A stretch of DNA of 26,310 nt from a virus: positions 1 through 26,310 of the IMG/VR virus record IMGVR_UViG_3300042380_000415; one strand, 5' to 3'. Position 1 is the first letter of the stretch; the number at the start of each line of letters is the position of its first letter. A program made the translations under genes and the position numbers. Under the pieces are notes generated by a model. The model did no database searches. It saw only the letters and a program-made list of their open reading frames with translations, and had not been told where the DNA came from. Positions 270-23,973 of this stretch are shown here, piece by piece.

Positions 270-500
270 GTCTTCGTCGTCTTCAATCTCGGAGACTTCA
301 ATTTCGTTTTGAACACCGTAGAAAACGTTGCCGCGAACAATCTGTTCGTGAGCTTCAAACTCAAGAACCTCGCCGCCATCCTTGGCTTCAACGTAGAAAT
401 TGGATTCAAAGGCTTTTTCCTTTGCTTGCTTTTTGTCATCAGCTTGAACTTTGACCAGGACGGTCATGGTGCAAGGGATGATTACTGAATACTTGGGCAT
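261..500 (-). CDS. Small acidic-tailed hypothetical protein (79 aa)
   Basis: The product begins MPKYSVIIPCTMTVLVKVQA and ends in an acidic tail (EVSEIEDDEDLN). The alternating hydrophobic start suggests a beta-rich fold, but no family is recognised. Its DNA is clearly more AT-rich than the flanking GC-rich genes. It is bracketed by near-identical 26-bp direct repeats at 244-269 and 540-565, so it looks like an inserted cassette. It follows the membrane-HTH gene in the leftward unit that starts near 787. The ATG at 500 is the only good start for a compact protein of this length. Confidence 0.75.
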   Translation of the reverse strand: MPKYSVIIPCTMTVLVKVQADDKKQAKEKAFESNFYVEAKDGGEVLEFEAHEQIVRGNVFYGVQNEIEVSEIEDDEDLN

Positions 501-539
501 GGTTGCAATGCGGTGGAAATGAGCTGCCGGATTGGGGAC

Positions 540-565
540 GGCTCCGGCGGGCCGTTCAGTTCAAA
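540..565 (-). repeat. 26-bp direct repeat, copy B (spans stop of the 561-746 gene)
   Basis: This is the second copy of the repeat at 244-269. It covers the stop codon of the membrane-HTH gene and the first bases of the spacer before the next gene. Distance between copies is 296 bp, so recombination between them would cleanly remove the gene at 261-500. Confidence 0.8.
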
Positions 566-746
566 CCGCCAGCATCCTCCGAACCGTTGACCGGGAACAC
601 CCCAGTCGATCAGCGATGCGCTGCTGTGTCCAGCCGTCGCGCCGCCACCTGCGGGCGCGTTGCTGGCGGGACTCTGTGGCCCACAGCAGGAACAGCAGCG
701 GAAGCAACAGCAGCACCAAAGCGGTGCAGAGAATCGTGGTTGTCAT
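561..746 (-). CDS. Membrane-anchored mini helix-turn-helix protein (61 aa)
   Basis: Residues 4-23 form a leucine-rich transmembrane segment. A basic stretch (RQQRARRWRRDGW) follows, then a helix-turn-helix at about residues 39-60 (TQQRIADRLGCSRSTVRRML), which resembles resolvase- or MarR-type HTH elements. The start at 746 (MTTTIL) was chosen because the longer frame would read back through the promoter element at 787-817, whose predicted transcript begins near 780. It is the first gene of the leftward unit ending off the left edge. The predicted topology places a DNA-binding head at the inner membrane; partner and role are unknown. Confidence 0.75.
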   Translation of the reverse strand: MTTTILCTALVLLLLPLLFLLWATESRQQRARRWRRDGWTQQRIADRLGCSRSTVRRMLAV

Positions 747-786
747 GGCGAACAATGGCGAGTGGCGGGCGTGTGCCCGTGGTCGA

Positions 787-817
787 ATCATACCGGATGG
801 GTTCCGGTTTTGCACCC
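787..817 (-). promoter_or_regulatory. Promoter/operator repeat, copy 1
   Basis: Read on the minus strand, an interrupted palindrome GGGTGC-N7-GAACCC is followed by a -10 box TATGAT (792-787). There is no good consensus -35, so the palindrome may be a regulator site. Copies 2 (8072-8102) and 3 (11356-11386) keep the same spacing. The predicted transcript start near 780 gives a leader of about 34 nt for the gene starting at 746. Confidence 0.7.
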
Positions 818-859
818 CTTAGGGGCGGGGATGGGCAGGACGTGGGCGGAGTGGGTGGG

Positions 860-1087
860 TCATGCCCGCCCCTCCTGCCGCAGCTCGGCGGCGAGGGCGA
901 GGAGTTGGCGCTTGCTGACCCATTCCTCTCCACTAAGCGTGGTTATTTTGGAAACATTGGACACTGCAGCAACCAGCCCGGCGGCCAGCGGGTAACCCAT
1001 GTCTTCCAGCGGCCCTTGAGCTTCGTAGGCGTCATTCCAGGCATCCCATACAGCCTGCGCGGCGGGGGATAGGGGTTGGGTGGTCAT
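860..1087 (-). CDS. MTTxPxSPAAQ-type small phage protein (75 aa)
   Basis: The protein begins MTTQPLSPAAQAVWDAWNDA and contains GPLEDMGYPLAAGL. It resembles a recurrent small-protein family I associate with Synechococcus/Cyanobium phages; function is unknown. The ATG overlaps the stop of the upstream gene (ATGA, 1084-1087), indicating translational coupling. Its first 34 bases closely match those of the gene starting at 1604, differing by a two-codon indel, but the bodies of the two proteins are unrelated. It is the last gene of the long leftward chain before the promoter near 787. Confidence 0.85.
   Translation of the reverse strand: MTTQPLSPAAQAVWDAWNDAYEAQGPLEDMGYPLAAGLVAAVSNVSKITTLSGEEWVSKRQLLALAAELRQEGRA
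1054..1087 (-). repeat. Conserved gene-head repeat, copy A
   Basis: These bases encode the shared N-terminus MTT..P..PAAQ and match 1565-1604 apart from six extra bases (two codons) and scattered changes. Both copies begin at an ATGA overlap with an AT-richer upstream gene. Confidence 0.75.
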
Positions 1088-1350
1088 GGTCTTTGAACCT
1101 CAACAAACGTAATCTTTCTGAGTTTAATTAACTGTTTTTCAAGTGAAGTAATCTTTTTGTCCAGCTTCTTTTCTGCGGTTATCACTGCTTCGTCCCATGA
1201 ACGCACCCAATCGTTGCGACCTAGAAACAGCCCTGTAAGGCGTCGTCCATCTTCCCCTTTTTCTGAAAAATATCCATCAGAAGTGGGCTTGCCGACAACC
1301 TTGAAGATTCCAATGGTCAACGCATACTTAACGCAATACACAGTTTCCAT
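1084..1350 (-). CDS. Hypothetical small protein (88 aa), AT-richer cassette gene
   Basis: The product begins METVYCVKYALTIGIFKVVG and ends with a lysine-rich helical, coiled-coil-like segment (AEKKLDKKITSLEKQLIKLRK). No family is recognised. The ATG at 1350 sits in a TGATG overlap with the stop of the preceding gene. A GTG at 1353 is possible but less likely. The stop overlaps the next start as ATGA. The DNA is distinctly AT-richer than both neighbours. Upstream lies the 31-bp junction also present at 1688-1718, downstream the head repeat also present at 1565-1604, so the gene occupies the same flanks as the 29-aa gene at 1601-1690. Confidence 0.8.
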   Translation of the reverse strand: METVYCVKYALTIGIFKVVGKPTSDGYFSEKGEDGRRLTGLFLGRNDWVRSWDEAVITAEKKLDKKITSLEKQLIKLRKITFVEVQRP

Positions 1351-1378
1351 CACCCCACCTCCGCGCCGGGCACCGGCA
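1348..1378 (-). repeat. 31-bp identical junction repeat, copy A
   Basis: This 31-bp sequence is identical to 1688-1718. On the minus strand it encodes the PVPGAEVG end of one gene, the TGA stop and the overlapping ATG of the next. Because the identity runs through the stop/start overlap and ends there, the next genes are entirely different. Confidence 0.9.
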
Positions 1379-1604
1379 CAGTCAGGCTATCGACGAGCTT
1401 GAACAGGTCCGTCTTTAACTCAAAACAGCGAGTAGCCATCGCATAAGCGCGAAGCGCAGCGATTGCGGCGCGATCGGTGCCATCAATCCGCAACACAAAG
1501 CACGGATAATCAACGGGCTGGCCGTCTGCTTTTTGGATGGCGTACTTGCCGTGCAGTCCGCCATCCTGCGCGGCGGGGAATAGGGGCGGGGTTGGGGTGG
1601 TCAT
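1350..1604 (-). CDS. Small hypothetical protein with shared head and tail (84 aa)
   Basis: The N-terminus MTTPTPPLFPAAQ is shared with the gene at 860-1087, and the C-terminus PVPGAEVG is shared with the gene at 1690-2229. The middle (YAIQKADGQPVDYPCFVLRI followed by AAIAALRAYAMA) resembles a small phage family that starts YxIQKADG. No enzymatic motif is visible. I chose the start at 1604 because it forms an ATGA overlap with the 29-aa gene upstream and gives the MTTP start. The longer frame runs back through neighbouring genes. Function is unknown. Confidence 0.85.
   Translation of the reverse strand: MTTPTPPLFPAAQDGGLHGKYAIQKADGQPVDYPCFVLRIDGTDRAAIAALRAYAMATRCFELKTDLFKLVDSLTVPVPGAEVG
1565..1604 (-). 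repeat. Conserved gene-head repeat, copy B
   Basis: This is the second copy of the MTT..P-AAQ-encoding head (see 1054-1087), six bases longer. It again directly follows an ATGA overlap. Confidence 0.75.
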
Positions 1605-1690
1605 AGTTGAACTCCGTGGGGATACAGTTGATGGACTATTTCGTAAAGGAAGTAACAAATCCAAAACACAGTGAAGGCGTCTCGTTTCAT
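1601..1690 (-). CDS. 29-aa hydrophobic microprotein
   Basis: The sequence starts MKRDAFTVFWICYFLYEIVH and ends QLYPHGVQL. It is aromatic and hydrophobic in the middle, so a short membrane peptide is plausible. Its ATG overlaps the upstream stop by one base (TGATG at 1692-1688) and its TGA overlaps the next start (ATGA). It therefore fills exactly what would otherwise be an 85-bp gap between two coupled genes. It is AT-rich compared with its neighbours. It lies between the same 31-bp junction and head repeat that flank the 88-aa gene at 1084-1350. The overlaps are the main evidence that it is translated. Confidence 0.65.
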   Translation of the reverse strand: MKRDAFTVFWICYFLYEIVHQLYPHGVQL

Positions 1691-1718
1691 CACCCCACCT
1701 CCGCGCCGGGCACCGGCA
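1688..1718 (-). repeat. 31-bp identical junction repeat, copy B
   Basis: This copy is identical to 1348-1378. It covers the PVPGAEVG tail of the gene at 1690-2229, its TGA, and the ATG of the 29-aa gene. Confidence 0.9.
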
Positions 1719-2229
1719 GGGCGTTGTGGGGATACCAGTGGGCCCTGCGCAGTTCGTCACTTGTGGAGTATTCACGCAATACCCAGGCGTGAGGTATCCA
1801 TTCATACTCATCAAAGTATTGCTCTTTAATGCCGCCTTCTTCAACCCATACTTCTCCTTCATCGTTGCAATCCTCCCGCCCCGGCACCGGCTCACTGACC
1901 GGCACCGGCTCGGTGGTGGGGTGGGCGTAGCGGGTGAGGATGGCGCCACATAGATCGGCAACATCTTCGGCGCAGACATTGCCGATCAGTCGCGCAGTAG
2001 GTTCCCAGCCGAAAGCGCACTCTCGAACCGCCGTTGCAATGGATGCGATTCGCTCCGTCACCCCCTCCGGCTCGGGCTGGGCCAGGGCGGCGCGGGTCTG
2101 GGATAGGTGCTCGCGGCACTCCATCAGGGCGACGGGATCGAAACAGTCACGATCAACGCAATCAATCAGATAGCGGACATTTTCAATTAGCTCGGCGCAT
2201 GTCTTGCGCCAATCAGTTCGTTTAGTCAT
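1690..2229 (-). CDS. QPEPE-linker phage protein with PVPGAEVG tail (179 aa)
   Basis: The N-terminal helical part (WRKTCAELIENV ... ECREHLSQTRAALAQPEPEG) is followed by a helical segment. The C-terminal region contains EPVPVSEPVPGREDCNDEGE, several tryptophans and HNALPVPGAEVG. This layout matches a recurrent uncharacterised family I associate with Synechococcus/Cyanobium. Its neighbour at 2226-2666 is a paralogue in the N-terminal half. The start at 2229 gives an ATGA overlap with that gene; an ATG at 2238 is an alternative. The C-terminal half is AT-richer than the N-terminal half. Function is unknown. Confidence 0.8.
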   Translation of the reverse strand: MTKRTDWRKTCAELIENVRYLIDCVDRDCFDPVALMECREHLSQTRAALAQPEPEGVTERIASIATAVRECAFGWEPTARLIGNVCAEDVADLCGAILTRYAHPTTEPVPVSEPVPGREDCNDEGEVWVEEGGIKEQYFDEYEWIPHAWVLREYSTSDELRRAHWYPHNALPVPGAEVG

Positions 2230-2666
2230 CGTTGGCATGGGATGGGACGGGTTGATGTCCAGTAAGGGGGGCCACCAGGTGGCACAACAAAATAAACCTC
2301 ATCGTCTTGTGAGGGTTCGACAAGCTCGTATGTTTGATTGAACAGCTCGCGGCCGATCGGATATTCCTCGCCTTTCACGCCACGCATGATCAGATCATCG
2401 TTCATTGCTGGTGTGATGCCTTCGCGTGTCGAAACAAATGCTTCTCCAGGTCGCTGCTCTCTGACGTGTACCGTGATCGGCAGTTTCCTGCAAGGTTTCC
2501 AGTCGGGGCCAATCTCGGGCTCAAGGTTGGGCTCAGGCTCGGGCTGGGATAGGGCGGTGCGGGCGCGGGCAACCAGTTCAGATTCGTGACCTTCATACAG
2601 CGATGTGTGGCCATTAAGCGCATCAGCCAGCTCAGCACACAACGCTCTGTAATCAGTGCTCATCAT
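2226..2666 (-). CDS. QPEPE-linker phage protein, paralogue (146 aa)
   Basis: Residues 4-45 (DYRALCAELADALNG ... ARARTALSQPEPE) parallel the N-terminus of the downstream neighbour at 1690-2229, including the PEPE linker. The C-terminal half is different: GPDWKPCRKLPITVHVREQRPG, then PPGGPPYWTSTRPIPC, so the two genes share a head but not a body. The ATG at 2666 overlaps the stop of the preceding gene (ATGA). No catalytic motif is visible. The C-terminal half may be a protein-interaction or ligand domain, but that is a guess. Confidence 0.8.
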   Translation of the reverse strand: MMSTDYRALCAELADALNGHTSLYEGHESELVARARTALSQPEPEPNLEPEIGPDWKPCRKLPITVHVREQRPGEAFVSTREGITPAMNDDLIMRGVKGEEYPIGRELFNQTYELVEPSQDDEVYFVVPPGGPPYWTSTRPIPCQR

Positions 2667-2938
2667 TCATCTCCAGTGTGTGTGAATCCATCCAACCAGT
2701 CCGCAACCGAACTGGACCCGCCGTGCCGCTCCCTGAGCACCTGCCCCAGCTCACCGGCGACGCTGCGGGCGACGGCGGTGCAGGTCTGGCACGGCTCAGG
2801 GCACCGGCGCGGCATGGGGCAGGCGGCCAGGGCTAAGCGGGTGGATGCTGTCGGCGTGGGGCGGCCCTGATCACTGGTGACAGGCGCGGTGGCAATGCGG
2901 GCCATGGCCTGCTGGGTGGGGGTGGTGTAGGTGATCAT
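2663..2938 (-). CDS. Cysteine-motif small phage protein (91 aa)
   Basis: The core is SDQGRPTPTASTRLALAACP followed by MPRRCPEPCQTC, with cysteines at about 40, 46, 50 and 53, then a conserved-looking end (LRERHGGSSSVADWLDG). I associate the RRCPEPCQTC/ADWLDG layout with a small family in Synechococcus/Cyanobium-type genomes. The clustered cysteines could bind a metal, but that is not shown. The start at 2938 (MITYTTP) was preferred over the upstream in-frame ATG because that would overlap the preceding gene by about 75 bp. The stop overlaps the next ATG as ATGA. Confidence 0.8.
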   Translation of the reverse strand: MITYTTPTQQAMARIATAPVTSDQGRPTPTASTRLALAACPMPRRCPEPCQTCTAVARSVAGELGQVLRERHGGSSSVADWLDGFTHTGDE

Positions 2939-2942
2939 TGAA

Positions 2943-3206
2943 TTAAGCGTCGGAATCAGCAGAGAACACGCACTTGAAGTTGTAGACGTGGCCATCGTTC
3001 CACCATGCTTCGCCATAAGCGTTGTGGTGGTCCGGTAGCTTATGCGGGCGATCTGCGTCGAACTGATAGATCACAGTTCGACCAACTTTCATGGCCCATG
3101 CCATGGCAGCTTGAAGGCTGGTGAAGCCACGAACCGGGGCAATGATGTGCCCGGTTTCGCGATACAGCTTTGCTTTCTTCGGGGTGGTTGCGTGATACAG
3201 AATCAT
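2943..3206 (-). CDS. YHATTPKKA family small protein (87 aa)
   Basis: The protein begins MILYHATTPKKAKLYRETGH, continues IIAPVRGFTSLQAAMAWA, and has a histidine-rich HKLPDHHNAYGEAWW segment. It looks like a compact complete domain of a phage/bacterial family I have seen without an assigned function. The N-terminal YHATTP...G.I..PVRGF arrangement recalls the start of ADP-ribosyltransferase-fold proteins such as Arr or KptA, but no full catalytic set can be confirmed. Its ATG overlaps the stop of the preceding gene (ATGA) and it lies 4 nt before the next gene. Its DNA is AT-richer than its neighbours. Confidence 0.8.
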   Translation of the reverse strand: MILYHATTPKKAKLYRETGHIIAPVRGFTSLQAAMAWAMKVGRTVIYQFDADRPHKLPDHHNAYGEAWWNDGHVYNFKCVFSADSDA

Positions 3207-3424
3207 CGGGCGCCCTCACCATGCAGCAGCTGTTTGGCCGCGGCGGCCAGCACTTCCAGCTCTTCGACGCTGACAGGGATCTCGGCCTCCCCGTAGTGCA
3301 GCTCTAGGCATTCTTCGCCACTGTCGGGCACCAGTACCAGCCTGAGCGCTATGTCAGAAAACGGGCCATCAGGGGCGTTGGCGTCATAGACGACAACTTC
3401 AGTAGCTCGGGTTGCGTAGCTCAT
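3203..3424 (-). CDS. Hypothetical small acidic protein (73 aa)
   Basis: The product begins MSYATRATEVVVYDANAPDG and ends in a helix (VSVEELEVLAAAAKQLLHGEG). The middle contains DIALRLVLVPDSGEECLELH, suggesting a small alpha/beta fold. No family is recognised. I chose the start at 3424 because it makes an ATGA overlap with the 47-aa gene upstream; the longer frame overlaps two other genes. The stop overlaps the next start. Function is unknown. Confidence 0.75.
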   Translation of the reverse strand: MSYATRATEVVVYDANAPDGPFSDIALRLVLVPDSGEECLELHYGEAEIPVSVEELEVLAAAAKQLLHGEGAR

Positions 3425-3756: not shown

Positions 3757-5364
3757 TCAGGTGAGTAGTAGGCCCAGTTGCGCCCCGTTCATCCGGTGCT
3801 CAGCCATGGCGAAGTAGGCGGGATCCTGCTCAATGCCGATGGCGTTGAAGCCCTCGCCAATGGCGGCCTTGATGGTGGTGCCGCTGCCCATGAACGGGTC
3901 CAGCACCGTGCCGCCGGGTGGTGTCACCAGACGGCACAGGTAGGCCATCAGGTCGAGGGGTTTGACCGTGGGGTGGGTGACGCCCTGGCGCTCGGCTTTG
4001 GTGGTCTTTGCGGTGTAGAACGCCCTAGGCGCTGAGACCCGATCCCCAGCTTCCGTATTCGTCCCGGTGATGTTGAACGTGACAGGTTCGGCAGATCCAT
4101 CGGATTTCCAATGGCTTGCTGTAATCGTCGTGATGCCTGTCTGCTCTCGGGTTACCGCAAAGCTCGCATGGCTGAGTGTCAGGGTGAGCTTTGCGGGCTT
4201 TGACTCGCGCCAGAACCTTGGCCCGATACTCTGGATCGCTGTGATAACGCTCTCGCAGAGTTGCCTTAACTCGCTCCCCGTGGCGCTCGTAGAAGGTGCC
4301 AGGGAGACTTTGCTGCAGATTGCCCCTTGGAGCGCCCAAGTTGCTGCATCGCTTAGAGCAGAAGCGACGGCTTGCCTTGACTGGTTGGAAATGTTGCCCG
4401 CAGTGTTCGCAGGCTCTGGGAGCAAGTTTGGCCATGCCTCAGTATAGCCTTTGCACTGCTTGAAAAACCGGGCGGCGCTGCCGGTGCTGCCGTAAAAGCC
4501 TGAGGATTGTTGCCCGCCAGGCGTGAAGATCCCATCGTTTTCGTTGGAGTACGTGGCCCCACTCTTGCCGCCGCTCACCGTCTCAGGGAACAACCCCACC
4601 ACCTCGTCGCTGCCGTCGTGGATCAGGTTGGCGGGCCAGCGGCCACTCTGAGACGGCTCAAACGTCCTACGCTCCCGCCTCGGTTCGTAGGACGTTTGAG
4701 CCGTGTTTACTCCTTGCGTGACAGCGTTTTCTGTATAGCCATCGCCCGCTGCGATCCTGCACCCATCCACATTCAACGCCCCGGTGCCGTGCTCCAGCAC
4801 GTTGGCGGCCACGGTGCCCTGCAGAGGTTTGCGGGCCATGGTGATCGGCTCTAGGGCGGGCTTGAGAGCTGTGCCCCAGCCGGCCCACTGCTGGGCTTCG
4901 GGGGTGGCGGGGGCGGTGACTGGGATGCGATCACCAAACTCAGGATGCGCCTTGCTCGCTTTCAAGCTGACGCTGTCCTTTTGGTTCATCGTTGAACTGA
5001 TTCCCACCACCTCCCGCTCAGCCCCAGCCGCCTTATCAATCGCCTTTGACACATCCAACGACTTCGGGAACCCCGATCCATAGCAGTACATAATCAAATC
5101 CCGAATCTCAAAGCCCGCATCCTCAATACGCACCGCCATTCGATGCTGTGTGCGCGTACCAGCGAACGCCAATAGGTGCCCGCCAGGCTTGAGAACCCGC
5201 AGACATTCCACCCATATCTCCACACTGGGAACGTCGTAATCCCAGCGCTTGCCCATAAACGCCAACCCATACGGAGGATCACAAACCACCGCATCCACGC
5301 TGCAGTCAGGCATGGTGCGCATCACCTCCAGGCAGTCGCCCAGGTGCAGGGTGTGCTGAGTCAT
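3757..5364 (-). CDS. DNA methyltransferase (beta-class N6-A/N4-C), interrupted by HNH insertion
   Basis: The catalytic motif DPPYG is at residues 29-33 and the SAM-binding motif DPFMGSGTT is near 489-497, after HPTVKPLDLM. Motif IV before motif I is the beta-class order, and DPPY favours N6-adenine. The region between contains GRWPANLIHDGSDEV. The expected junction AARFF/YTAK is split between F301 and Y450 by 148 extra residues (nt 4018-4461, 444 bp). These contain the nested HNH ORF in another frame. The insertion is in frame without stops, so a 535-aa protein could still be made; whether it is active is unknown. Start ATGA overlaps the upstream stop. Confidence 0.85.
   Translation of the reverse strand: MTQHTLHLGDCLEVMRTMPDCSVDAVVCDPPYGLAFMGKRWDYDVPSVEIWVECLRVLKPGGHLLAFAGTRTQHRMAVRIEDAGFEIRDLIMYCYGSGFPKSLDVSKAIDKAAGAEREVVGISSTMNQKDSVSLKASKAHPEFGDRIPVTAPATPEAQQWAGWGTALKPALEPITMARKPLQGTVAANVLEHGTGALNVDGCRIAAGDGYTENAVTQGVNTAQTSYEPRRERRTFEPSQSGRWPANLIHDGSDEVVGLFPETVSGGKSGATYSNENDGIFTPGGQQSSGFYGSTGSAARFFKQCKGYTEAWPNLLPEPANTAGNISNQSRQAVASALSDAATWALQGAICSKVSLAPSTSATGSELRQLCESVITAIQSIGPRFWRESKPAKLTLTLSHASFAVTREQTGITTITASHWKSDGSAEPVTFNITGTNTEAGDRVSAPRAFYTAKTTKAERQGVTHPTVKPLDLMAYLCRLVTPPGGTVLDPFMGSGTTIKAAIGEGFNAIGIEQDPAYFAMAEHRMNGAQLGLLLT
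4025..4435 (-). CDS. HNH endonuclease nested within the methyltransferase gene (136 aa)
   Basis: The N-terminal zinc knuckle has cysteines 9, 12, 26 and 30 (CEHC ... CSKRC). The C-terminal HNH fold has CELC (90-93), RHHDDYSKPLE (100-110) and CRTCHVQHH (115-123), typical of small phage HNH enzymes with two zinc-binding pairs. A basic linker (about residues 51-82) separates them. The gene lies entirely inside the 444-bp insertion of the methyltransferase, in a different frame on the same strand. Its stop is 10 bases from the point where methyltransferase homology resumes. It probably nicks or cuts DNA and promotes its own spread by homing, but that is inferred from family and position. Confidence 0.85.
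   Translation of the reverse strand: MAKLAPRACEHCGQHFQPVKASRRFCSKRCSNLGAPRGNLQQSLPGTFYERHGERVKATLRERYHSDPEYRAKVLARVKARKAHPDTQPCELCGNPRADRHHDDYSKPLEIRWICRTCHVQHHRDEYGSWGSGLSA
4653..4704. repeat. Perfect 19-bp inverted repeat within methyltransferase
   Basis: ACGGCTCAAACGTCCTACG at 4653-4671 is the exact reverse complement of 4686-4704, with a 14-nt loop. It lies in the variable region between the catalytic and SAM motifs and encodes TAQTSYEP...RRTFEPS. It could form a very strong hairpin in DNA or mRNA. No coding reason for a perfect match is apparent. Confidence 0.9.
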
Positions 5365-16127: not shown

Positions 16128-17048
16128 ATGAGCGAAAGCGTAGCGCGCCACCTGCACGGCGCCGAAATTGAATCCATCCGCGAGTGGCTTTACTGCGACA
16201 ATTCTTCGCCAAGTGGATTGCGCTGGCGTAAAAGTTTCGGAAAACTTCGCATTCAAGGGCAGCCCGCCGGAAGACTTACGCAGGGCTATTTCTGTTTTTC
16301 GCTTAATCAGTCTTACTATCGAGCCACTGATTTAATACTGCTACTGAATGGCATCTTCCCAGCAGACCCCCGTCAGCGTGCCTGTTTAATTGATGCCGAA
16401 GGTCCGGTAAACGACGCACTAAACCTTCAATGGCATATACCGGTTAAAGAAAAAACCAAACAATCAAGCGTTAAACCTGATTTAGAATCAATAAAAAGGC
16501 GCAAAGAAAGGCGTTTTGTTGATAGCGCTTTAAGCGGCAGAATAGCCGTTATAACTGAAGACACAAGGCTTTTCCGCTTGTGCCCAGGCAATCATTTCTG
16601 GATGGGTCAACCCTTGACGCTGTACAAAATGGGCCATGACGGCAAATGGGAATGCCCTGAGTGCAAGCAGCATGATCAAGAGCTTTACTCTAGGTATTTG
16701 CTGGCAAGGAAAGGGTTTCACATTCGTGTTCACAGAAGCAGGCGAAACCTCAAATCCCTACCTTGGCATGAAGTGCAGCAAAGGTTTGCTCAGTTCGAGC
16801 ACCGCTGCGCCTATTGCGGCTGTGATGGCAAGATGCAGATTGAGCACGTCGTGCCGATCAGCAAAGGCGGGTCTCATTCTGTGGGCAGCATCGTGCCAGC
16901 GTGCAAGCGCTGCAACGCGAGTAAGCACGCAAAGCCGGCCGAAACCTGGTACCGCTCCCAGCCGTTCTTCAGCGAGCTGCGCTGGCGGAAAATCTGCAGG
17001 GTGCTGGGCTGGCAGCGCTCCAGTGTCGGGCAGCTGGCGCTGCTGTAG
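16128..17048 (+). CDS. HNH endonuclease with degenerate N-terminal HNH_3-like half (306 aa)
   Basis: A complete HNH domain lies at residues 227-265: CAYC, IEHVVPISKGG, then CKRCNASKH. The N-terminal half resembles an HNH_3 homing domain: GLRWRKSFGKLRIQGQPAGR, then LTQGYFCFSLN and LLLNGIFPADPR. Its expected catalytic His residues are replaced by Arg and Ala. A second zinc pair, CPEC, lies at 176-179. The first 550 bases are AT-richer than the flanks. HNH enzymes often sit beside terminase genes in cos-type phages and can assist packaging, but this one looks more like a homing enzyme. It has its own promoter-like element. Confidence 0.8.
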   Translation: MSESVARHLHGAEIESIREWLYCDNSSPSGLRWRKSFGKLRIQGQPAGRLTQGYFCFSLNQSYYRATDLILLLNGIFPADPRQRACLIDAEGPVNDALNLQWHIPVKEKTKQSSVKPDLESIKRRKERRFVDSALSGRIAVITEDTRLFRLCPGNHFWMGQPLTLYKMGHDGKWECPECKQHDQELYSRYLLARKGFHIRVHRSRRNLKSLPWHEVQQRFAQFEHRCAYCGCDGKMQIEHVVPISKGGSHSVGSIVPACKRCNASKHAKPAETWYRSQPFFSELRWRKICRVLGWQRSSVGQLALL

Positions 17049-21882: not shown

Positions 21883-23973
21883 ATGTCTGGCGTGACGATT
21901 AAGGCTGCGGCCGAGGGCGCAACCCTGGAGCTGGCCCTGATCGGGGAGGTCGGATGGGAGATCAACGCATCGGTGCTGCAGCGGGCACTGGTGGGGAGGA
22001 CCGAAGATCTGACGATCAACCTGTTCAGCTATGGCGGCGATGCGATCGAGGGCCTGGCCATCTATTCGATGCTGGCGAGGTATCCCGGCAAGAAACGGAT
22101 GGTGATTGATGGCGTGGCTGCATCGGCCGCGTCGGTGATTGCGATGGCGGGCGACGAGATCGTGATGCCCGAGTCGTCGTTCCTGATGATCCACGAGGCG
22201 TGGGGCCTTGCGATCGGCGGATCCGGTGATCTGCGCCAGCAGGCCGACCTGATCGACCGCATCAGCACCGCCTACCGCCAGACCTACTCCGCCAGGTCTG
22301 GAATGAGCACTGAGGACGTGGCGTCGCTGATGGCCGCCGAGTCATGGCTGACTGCCGCCGAGGCGGTGGAGTTCGGGTTCGCTACCGAGGCGGCGCCAGC
22401 CCGCGAGATCCGCAGCGCTGCCGTTCCTCGCGGCCGGTTCGCCAGGGTGCCGCAGGCGCTGGTGCAGCTGGTGGAGTTTGTCGAGCCCAGCCGCCCAAAA
22501 GCTCAGGCCGCCACCGTGCCAGCCGAACCCGAACCCGCTCCCGAGCCTGAACAACCTGAGCCCGTCGCTGCTGCGACCGAAGGGGGTGGGGAACCGGAAG
22601 TGCTCCATAGCCTGAGCTCAGGTACGCAAACTGCACCTGTCCCCATGACCATCCAAAACACCGAAGCGGCGGACCGGGAGGCAGCCGCTATTCAAGCGGA
22701 GCGCGACCGGGCCCGAACCATCCGCAACATGTGCGAGCAGTCCGGCGCTGGCCACGAAAAGGCCGAGGAGTACATCAACTCTGGCGCTGAGATCGGCAAG
22801 GTCCGCGAGGAACTGTTCGCCCTTGTTACCGGCAAGGAAAAGCGCAGTCTCTCCAGCCGCCTGCAGGATTCCGGCGATGGCCTGCTCGGAATGAGCGACC
22901 AGGAAGTCAAGAGCTACAACATCCTGAACGCCATCCGCCACTTCTCCGACCCGACCGATGTGCGCCTCCGCGAGGCCGCCGGGCTGGAACTGGAGGCCTC
23001 TGCCGCTGCGGTGAAACAGTCGGGTCGCGAGCTGCAAGGCTCGTTCCGCATTCCTGCAGACGTGATGATCGCCCAGATCCCTGGGATGGGCGCCGGCCGC
23101 AGGGGCATCCAGGCCAATCAGACCGCAGGCGGGTTCACCACCGGCGGCGCGATGATCGATACCGATCTGCTGGTCGGTTCGATGATCGAGTTGATCTACA
23201 ACCGTCTGAGCATCACCGCTGCTGGCGCCACCGTGCTGAGCGGCCTAGTGGGTGACATTGACATCCCGAAAGAAACCAGCGGCCCTACCCATTACTGGGT
23301 CGGCGAAGGGCAAGCGCCTGATGCGTCCGAGATTCTGGTTGGGCAGCTCAGCCTGACGCCCAAGACCGTGGGCGCCAAGACCGTGCTGACTCGCCGGTTC
23401 ATCGGCCAGACCTCGTTCTCCGCTGAGGCATGGGTGCGCAGTCACCTGAGCCGCAAGGTTGCTCTCGGCATCGACAAGGACTTCCTCTACTCGCCAGGCG
23501 GATCCAAGCGCCCTCTGGGCCTGCGGTCCACCGATGGGGTACGGACTGAAACGCTTTCTGGCGGCCAGTCCAAGACCATTAACTCGGTGAGCTACAACTT
23601 CGGCACCTTTCTCAACCTGGTTGAGATGGAGACGAAGGTAAGCCTGGCCAATCTGGACGTACCCAGCATGGCCTACATGATGAACGCTCACGCCAGGGGC
23701 GTCTACAAGACCACGCTGGAGAACGCTCAGAGCGACTTCTACATCCTGCGGAACAACGAGATCAACGGCTACCCGGCCCTGATGTCGAACCAGCTGGAGG
23801 TAAACAATATCCTCTTCGGCGATATGTCGCAGGTCCTGCTGGCATTCTGGAGTGGCCAGGACATCGGCGTGAACCCCTACAAGTACCAGGATTCGGGCAG
23901 CGTTGAGATCAGCATCCTGCAGGATTGCGATTTCGGTGTTCGCTATCCCGAGGCCTTTGTGTGGGGTATCTAA
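21883..23973 (+). CDS. ClpP-like head protease fused to HK97-fold major capsid protein (696 aa)
   Basis: Residues 5-190 form a ClpP-type protease: SYGGDAIEGLAIYSMLARYP, GVAASAASVIAMAGD with probable nucleophile Ser81, and MIHEAWG with His104. A Pro/Glu-rich linker lies at about 195-250. An internal ATG at 22645 (M255) begins a helical scaffold-like delta region. The HK97-type capsid domain follows (TTGGAMIDTDLLVGSMIELI, then FIGQTSFSAEAWVRSHLS and SMAYMMNAHARGVY). One polyprotein, self-cleaved, or two products by internal start are both possible. Protease-capsid fusions are known in other phages. Confidence 0.9.
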   Translation: MSGVTIKAAAEGATLELALIGEVGWEINASVLQRALVGRTEDLTINLFSYGGDAIEGLAIYSMLARYPGKKRMVIDGVAASAASVIAMAGDEIVMPESSFLMIHEAWGLAIGGSGDLRQQADLIDRISTAYRQTYSARSGMSTEDVASLMAAESWLTAAEAVEFGFATEAAPAREIRSAAVPRGRFARVPQALVQLVEFVEPSRPKAQAATVPAEPEPAPEPEQPEPVAAATEGGGEPEVLHSLSSGTQTAPVPMTIQNTEAADREAAAIQAERDRARTIRNMCEQSGAGHEKAEEYINSGAEIGKVREELFALVTGKEKRSLSSRLQDSGDGLLGMSDQEVKSYNILNAIRHFSDPTDVRLREAAGLELEASAAAVKQSGRELQGSFRIPADVMIAQIPGMGAGRRGIQANQTAGGFTTGGAMIDTDLLVGSMIELIYNRLSITAAGATVLSGLVGDIDIPKETSGPTHYWVGEGQAPDASEILVGQLSLTPKTVGAKTVLTRRFIGQTSFSAEAWVRSHLSRKVALGIDKDFLYSPGGSKRPLGLRSTDGVRTETLSGGQSKTINSVSYNFGTFLNLVEMETKVSLANLDVPSMAYMMNAHARGVYKTTLENAQSDFYILRNNEINGYPALMSNQLEVNNILFGDMSQVLLAFWSGQDIGVNPYKYQDSGSVEISILQDCDFGVRYPEAFVWGI
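22605..22622 (+). repeat. CCATAGCCTGAG element before the internal capsid start
   Basis: CCATAGCCTGAG followed by CTCAGG gives a perfect palindrome, CCTGAGCTCAGG. It lies 22 bp before the internal ATG at 22645, paralleling the copy before the protease start. Confidence 0.5.

Follow-up and report, generated by a model that had tools for sequence, protein, structure and literature searches.

A putative homing-type HNH nuclease gene nested out of frame in a phage DNA methyltransferase whose reading frame stays open

The DNA analysed here (the window) is the whole 26.3 kb (26,310 nucleotides) of virus record IMGVR_UViG_3300042380_000415. It carries genes for a terminase, portal, head protein, primase, helicase, SSB and RecT, which marks it as part of the genome of a tailed phage or a prophage. 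The locus of interest is a 535-aa ORF on the minus strand (table 1), whose matches to PF01555 and phrog_67 identify it as a beta-class N6/N4 DNA methyltransferase. In a 60-row alignment, the N-terminal part of this protein has conserved columns and the C-terminal part nearly invariant ones. Most of the catalytic core was well predicted by AlphaFold, and a fold search with the model returned solved beta-class methyltransferases. Between the two conserved parts lies an inserted segment, the core of which (aa 328-433) was modelled with a pLDDT of about 58-79 and is joined to the rest by low-confidence linkers on either side. Two other ORFs on the plus strand of the window deserve mention: a second HNH endonuclease ORF, free-standing and 306 aa long (16128-17048, PF01844/PF14279), shortly upstream of the terminase gene, and a single 696-aa ORF (21883-23973) with matches to both a head maturation protease and a major head protein, apparently a protease-capsid fusion.

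Table 1. Features of the interrupted methyltransferase locus, in positions of the window.
Feature	Position	Strand	Evidence or remark
Methyltransferase ORF, 535 aa	5364-3757	-	ORF list and translation
Methyltransferase N-terminal part, aa 1-301, DPPY motif to SAARFF	4462..5364	-	PF01555 / phrog_67
Inserted element, 444 bp, 148 open host codons (aa 302-449)	4018..4461	-	Missing from uninterrupted homologues
TATACT, -10-like hexamer, weak leaderless-promoter candidate	4441..4446	-	Aligns with TATAAT-N6-ATG of L013 and L015
Nested HNH endonuclease ORF, 136 aa, frame +2 relative to host	4025..4435	-	Invariant residues, AlphaFold, phrog_2340
SAPRAF in methyltransferase frame, copy of SAARFF, 3' end of insert	4018..4035	-	Overlaps HNH C-terminus and stop
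Methyltransferase C-terminal part and stop, aa 450-535: YTAK, HPTVKP, DPFMGSGTT	3757..4017	-	PF01555 stretch 453-522

The insert separates RFF from YTAK in the methyltransferase, whereas in uninterrupted homologues SAARFF is joined directly to Y(C/T)AK. A reading made from the sequence alone had proposed that 444 bp were inserted here and that they added 148 stop-free codons to the host gene. Pairwise alignment with an uninterrupted homologue (L044) bears this out: its one large insertion, of 148 aa, falls between RFF and YTAK. The boundaries can be placed only to within a few codons, because SAPRAF, with which the insert finishes, copies SAARFF imperfectly; its length of 444 bp is not in doubt.

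Within the insert, and wholly within the methyltransferase ORF, lies a complete HNH ORF in another frame, again as first proposed. Its zinc-ribbon cysteines (Cys 9, 12, 26 and 30) are invariant among 28 relatives, as are C90, C93, H101, H102, D104, C115, H119 and H123. The AlphaFold model (pLDDT 88) has a beta-beta-alpha unit at its end. The protein matches phrog_2340 (endonuclease) at 2e-11, and the viral structures returned by a fold search include HNHc and endonuclease VII proteins. The HNH models of Pfam gave no match above cut-off for the nested ORF, and the PDB, queried with the HNH protein by sequence and by fold, gave no significant match. Substitutions between relatives are concentrated at the third codon positions of the HNH frame, with a modest excess, and because these positions vary most the HNH frame is under purifying selection. 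Judged by its conservation and predicted fold, the nested ORF is a genuine gene for a nuclease.

A scan of IMG/VR gave 38 loci, to which a profile scan added more and a bacterial genome one, with duplicates removed; most carriers are metagenome contigs and all of the evidence comes from sequence. In each of the 58 distinct loci (window included), methyltransferase sequence flanks the insert in phase on both sides, the HNH ORF lies at +2 and the host frame contains no stop. HNH identity across this set spans 27-93% and insert lengths run from 115 to 209 codons, with the phase kept every time. The arrangement had been thought unusual when the window was read in isolation, which does not hold: it is widespread, and the same architecture was described by Arsenault, Gosselin and Gogarten in 2025 as the ShiLan domain of mycobacteriophage methylases (PMC11855218), following an earlier paper by Gosselin et al. 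in 2023 (PMC9957025).

Three further HNH families are nested at other sites of the same methyltransferase family, all of them at +2. The first is a 202-aa HNH_2-like nuclease at FPKSLDV/SKAIDK, present in Escherichia phage BUCT618 and 12 IMG/VR loci. A ShiLan-type HNH_3 nuclease lies near ALKP/xxEPI in mycobacteriophages Pollywog and Starcevich, and a few residues past that site in Cylindrospermopsis phage Cr-LKS3. Another HNH_3 nuclease follows YCAKASKADRNxGLD in L041, L042 and their relatives. In one contig (L139/L209, IMGVR_UViG_3300035703_000378, 25-876), two different nested HNHs stand in tandem in a single methyltransferase, both at +2 and with the host frame open. The preference for +2 is explained by the stops themselves, which in that frame require xTA before A or G, or xTG before A, and are easily avoided; many codon pairs create a stop in the other sense frame (+1), which was almost never open when codons were resampled.

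On the tree of methyltransferases, occupied alleles are scattered among empty ones, with 12 changes of state, at least six of which are forced by well-supported branches; empty alleles for this tree were sampled near the methyltransferase of the window, and some branches are long. The window's methyltransferase falls into a clade with five empty alleles and L003 (support 100/99), while L002 lies outside. AU tests rejected a single clade for the three nearest carriers (p 0.0003) and a grouping of the window with L002 (p 1.4e-5). The HNH proteins of the window and L002 are nevertheless 93% identical, against 77% amino acid identity for their methyltransferases, a difference that agrees with homing, though double coding itself slows change. 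Such a patchy distribution, incongruent with the methyltransferase tree, likewise fits homing and, with the AU tests, lends indirect support to the original proposal of a homing element; recombination of methyltransferase genes could produce patchiness instead. The same data bear on the possibility that the HNH gene does not move at all and has long been fixed as a partner of its host enzyme, for instance as a restriction-like nuclease against which methylation protects, inherited along with its host. This would agree with the finding that closer members of the window HNH family occur only inside methyltransferases, and with the age of the arrangement (HNH identity down to about 30%). We regard it as unlikely in view of the interleaved alleles, the AU tests and the presence of four unrelated HNH families in the same host at different sites.

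We then asked how readily the host frame would stay open by chance, using a null model in which the HNH protein was fixed, its codons were resampled and openness of the host frame was scored. With codon usage taken from the locus, the host frame of the window was open in 4% of trials, and with that of the ORF itself in 23%; taken on its own, the window is therefore weak evidence and only mildly surprising. About 1-3 host-frame stops per locus are expected in most of 37 HNH-bearing loci, and none is seen; the per-locus probabilities cannot be multiplied, because the loci are related to one another. The decisive comparison is with HNH relatives found outside methyltransferases, which have stops in the corresponding frame in 44 of 44 cases (1 to 23 each). 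This control rules out the chance overlap that the window alone would allow. Its sharpest case is L215 (IMGVR_UViG_3300029585_000085, 1023-3393), where an HNH of the L042 type with three host-frame stops follows directly after an intact, uninterrupted methyltransferase. We do not count it as an exception, given that the HNH sits after the methyltransferase gene and not within it. Nor is L186 (IMGVR_UViG_3300001487_000056, 91-1810), which belongs to the 58 loci, an exception. In this phage contig of 31% GC, the methyltransferase and the nested HNH both contain many in-frame TGA codons at glycine positions and neither contains TAA or TAG. TGA is read as glycine in the SR1/Gracilibacteria code, and the same code, deduced from those positions, apparently applies here; both overlapping frames would then be open.

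The comparison, in which no stop is found inside methyltransferases against at least one in every free-standing relative, gives strong support to dual coding with the host ORF left intact, as the sequence-only reading had suspected. The related loci carry the HNH ORF, which is the constrained frame; they do not show the pattern that the original proposal had named as its refutation, namely 148 residues conserved without it. That the insert merely inactivates the methyltransferase, its open frame being a matter of chance, seems highly improbable. The window's own frame could be open by chance (probability 0.04-0.23) and phage methyltransferases can be dispensable, but the contrast between internal and free-standing loci is complete and both catalytic halves are still conserved. 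The amino acids that the host frame specifies within the insert are under weak constraint at most. Their excess over synonymous resampling has a mean z of 0.4-1.8 at HNH identity below 60%, and with so small an excess at high divergence, and a modest excess at third positions, strong amino acid selection on this segment was rejected. What we claim for the host frame is therefore confined to its openness and to a motif at the 3' end of the insert.

At the 5' end, a repeat of the downstream host sequence has been reported for ShiLan (PMC11855218). Among our loci it is clear in L014, L128, L137 and L196 and is not general (median p 0.24). At the 3' end, a copy of the host motif stands directly before YCAK in 37 of 41 loci (p<0.05 versus the rest of the insert), and the re-created motif (xxRFx) takes forms such as SAPRAF, SSARFM and SASRFK, among others. 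The downstream half of the methyltransferase thereby resumes with a native-looking segment, as the end of the insert restores the host motif in the host frame. The codons of the motif lie at and beyond the HNH C-terminus and stop, and without translation of the host frame at this point there would be little reason for them to be kept. In young copies the motif might be left over from target duplication, but that could hardly hold at this divergence.

HNH genes are frequent in phage group I introns, and a minimal or novel intron that escapes detection could take the insert out of the mRNA. We consider this slightly less probable still than simple inactivation. The HNH ORF leaves just 33 bp of the insert uncovered, too little for a group I intron, as had been argued from the sequence alone, and an Rfam search of the window and 10 relatives returned no match and hence no intron core RNA or other intron family. 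Splicing would require neither phase nor an open frame, yet all loci keep both, and the host motif is restored in the host frame at the 3' end. An intein-like segment that splices itself from the protein is the least credible reading: although the 148 aa are in frame and within a conserved motif, they begin with Lys and finish RAF/Y, without the Cys/Ser/Thr and terminal Asn of an intein, and a Pfam search with the host-frame segment found no family.

We therefore favour, with a probability of roughly three in four, a homing-type element consisting of little beyond an HNH gene. It lies in a conserved motif of a phage methyltransferase with both frames open, and the open host frame would be what lets it persist there unspliced. 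Translation of the host would run straight through, and the resulting methyltransferase would keep its activity despite the 148-aa excursion, or the excursion would at least be tolerated. The nuclease would be made by internal initiation, from a Shine-Dalgarno sequence in some members and, in others, from a leaderless mRNA transcribed from an internal TATAAT-N6-ATG promoter. It would then cut empty alleles near the RFFYCAK codons, and repair would copy the element in.

Leaderless initiation was also a speculation of the ShiLan authors (PMC11855218). In 11 of 47 loci a TATAAT-like hexamer (at least 5/6) has its end 5-7 nt ahead of the HNH start codon, compared with 0.6% of background positions, and the gap is mostly 6 nt, the spacing that a leaderless promoter should have. 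A Shine-Dalgarno match of 5 nt or more precedes the start in 28% of loci versus 4.7%, and no locus among the 47 has both signals; some loci are related, so these counts are not fully independent. The enrichment of TATAAT-N6-ATG suggests a leaderless mRNA. In the window, the start signal is the least certain step of the proposed pathway, since all of its elements are weak: TATACT ends 5 nt before the HNH ATG, has a poor -35 and was not reported by a generic promoter scan of the window, and the Shine-Dalgarno match is a poor one of 3 nt. A programmed frameshift into the HNH frame was rejected, as a TGA two codons ahead of the ATG (ac TGA ggc ATG) would end any shift made further upstream.

The element of the window is of the ShiLan kind, with a nested HNH ORF, an open in-phase host frame, no detectable intron or intein and a disjunct distribution. 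Both consist of a complete HNH gene out of frame at the same +2 in homologous phage methyltransferases. It is not the ShiLan domain proper, however, as nuclease and site both differ. The two nucleases have 32 zinc-ribbon columns in common and no more; the site is RFF/YTAK in the window and ALKP/xxEPI in ShiLan; the insert adds 148 aa as opposed to 202 aa; and the HNH ORF starts with ATG, where that of ShiLan starts with GTG. The window type is carried by phages of environmental metagenomes and by a Paraburkholderia genome. HNH homing endonucleases of group I introns, such as I-HmuI, likewise occupy conserved parts of phage genes and share the probable homing, but in the window no intron is found and the host frame would be read through. 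Free-standing phage HNH or endonuclease VII-like nucleases (phrog_2340) and NinG resemble the nested protein in their zinc ribbon and HNH, and in family and fold matches, yet these genes stand alone and have stops in their +2 frame.

What is new relative to the ShiLan work is the breadth of the survey, the free-standing control, the +2 rule with its cause, the 3' motif and the statistics of start signals. Whether frame-preserving homing genes form a general third way besides introns and inteins is, on present evidence, an evenly balanced question. On this proposal, at least four HNH families would have converged on one methyltransferase family at +2, with their own start signals (leaderless ones included) and the 3' motif re-created, and the host enzyme would work with the nuclease gene as a loop. 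Our results turn a mycobacteriophage curiosity of 2025 into a broad class open to testing, in which long dual-coding overlaps persist because breaking the host gene is something a mobile nuclease cannot afford. With occupied and empty alleles to compare, and named carriers in Escherichia phage BUCT618, Cylindrospermopsis phage Cr-LKS3, mycobacteriophage Pollywog and a Paraburkholderia phenazinium genome, one can ask how the hidden gene starts and how large a loop the enzyme tolerates.

Some individual loci show further peculiarities. The bacterial carrier (L196, Paraburkholderia phenazinium LMG 2247 contig, 3992-4408) has a window-type nested HNH in a sequenced isolate and is probably a prophage, since the adjoining ORFs look NinB- and NinG-like by eye. 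In L025/L157 (L025: IMGVR_UViG_3300048813_000093, 303-3214), an apparent exception to the general pattern, matches to the methyltransferase N-terminus stop about 500 bases before the ORF with the nested HNH, and there may be another insertion or a frame break upstream. Annotation splits the methyltransferase of Mycobacterium phage Bobi (L123, 465-2934) into two genes (73 and 75), with the C-terminal part in another frame, past a long insertion.
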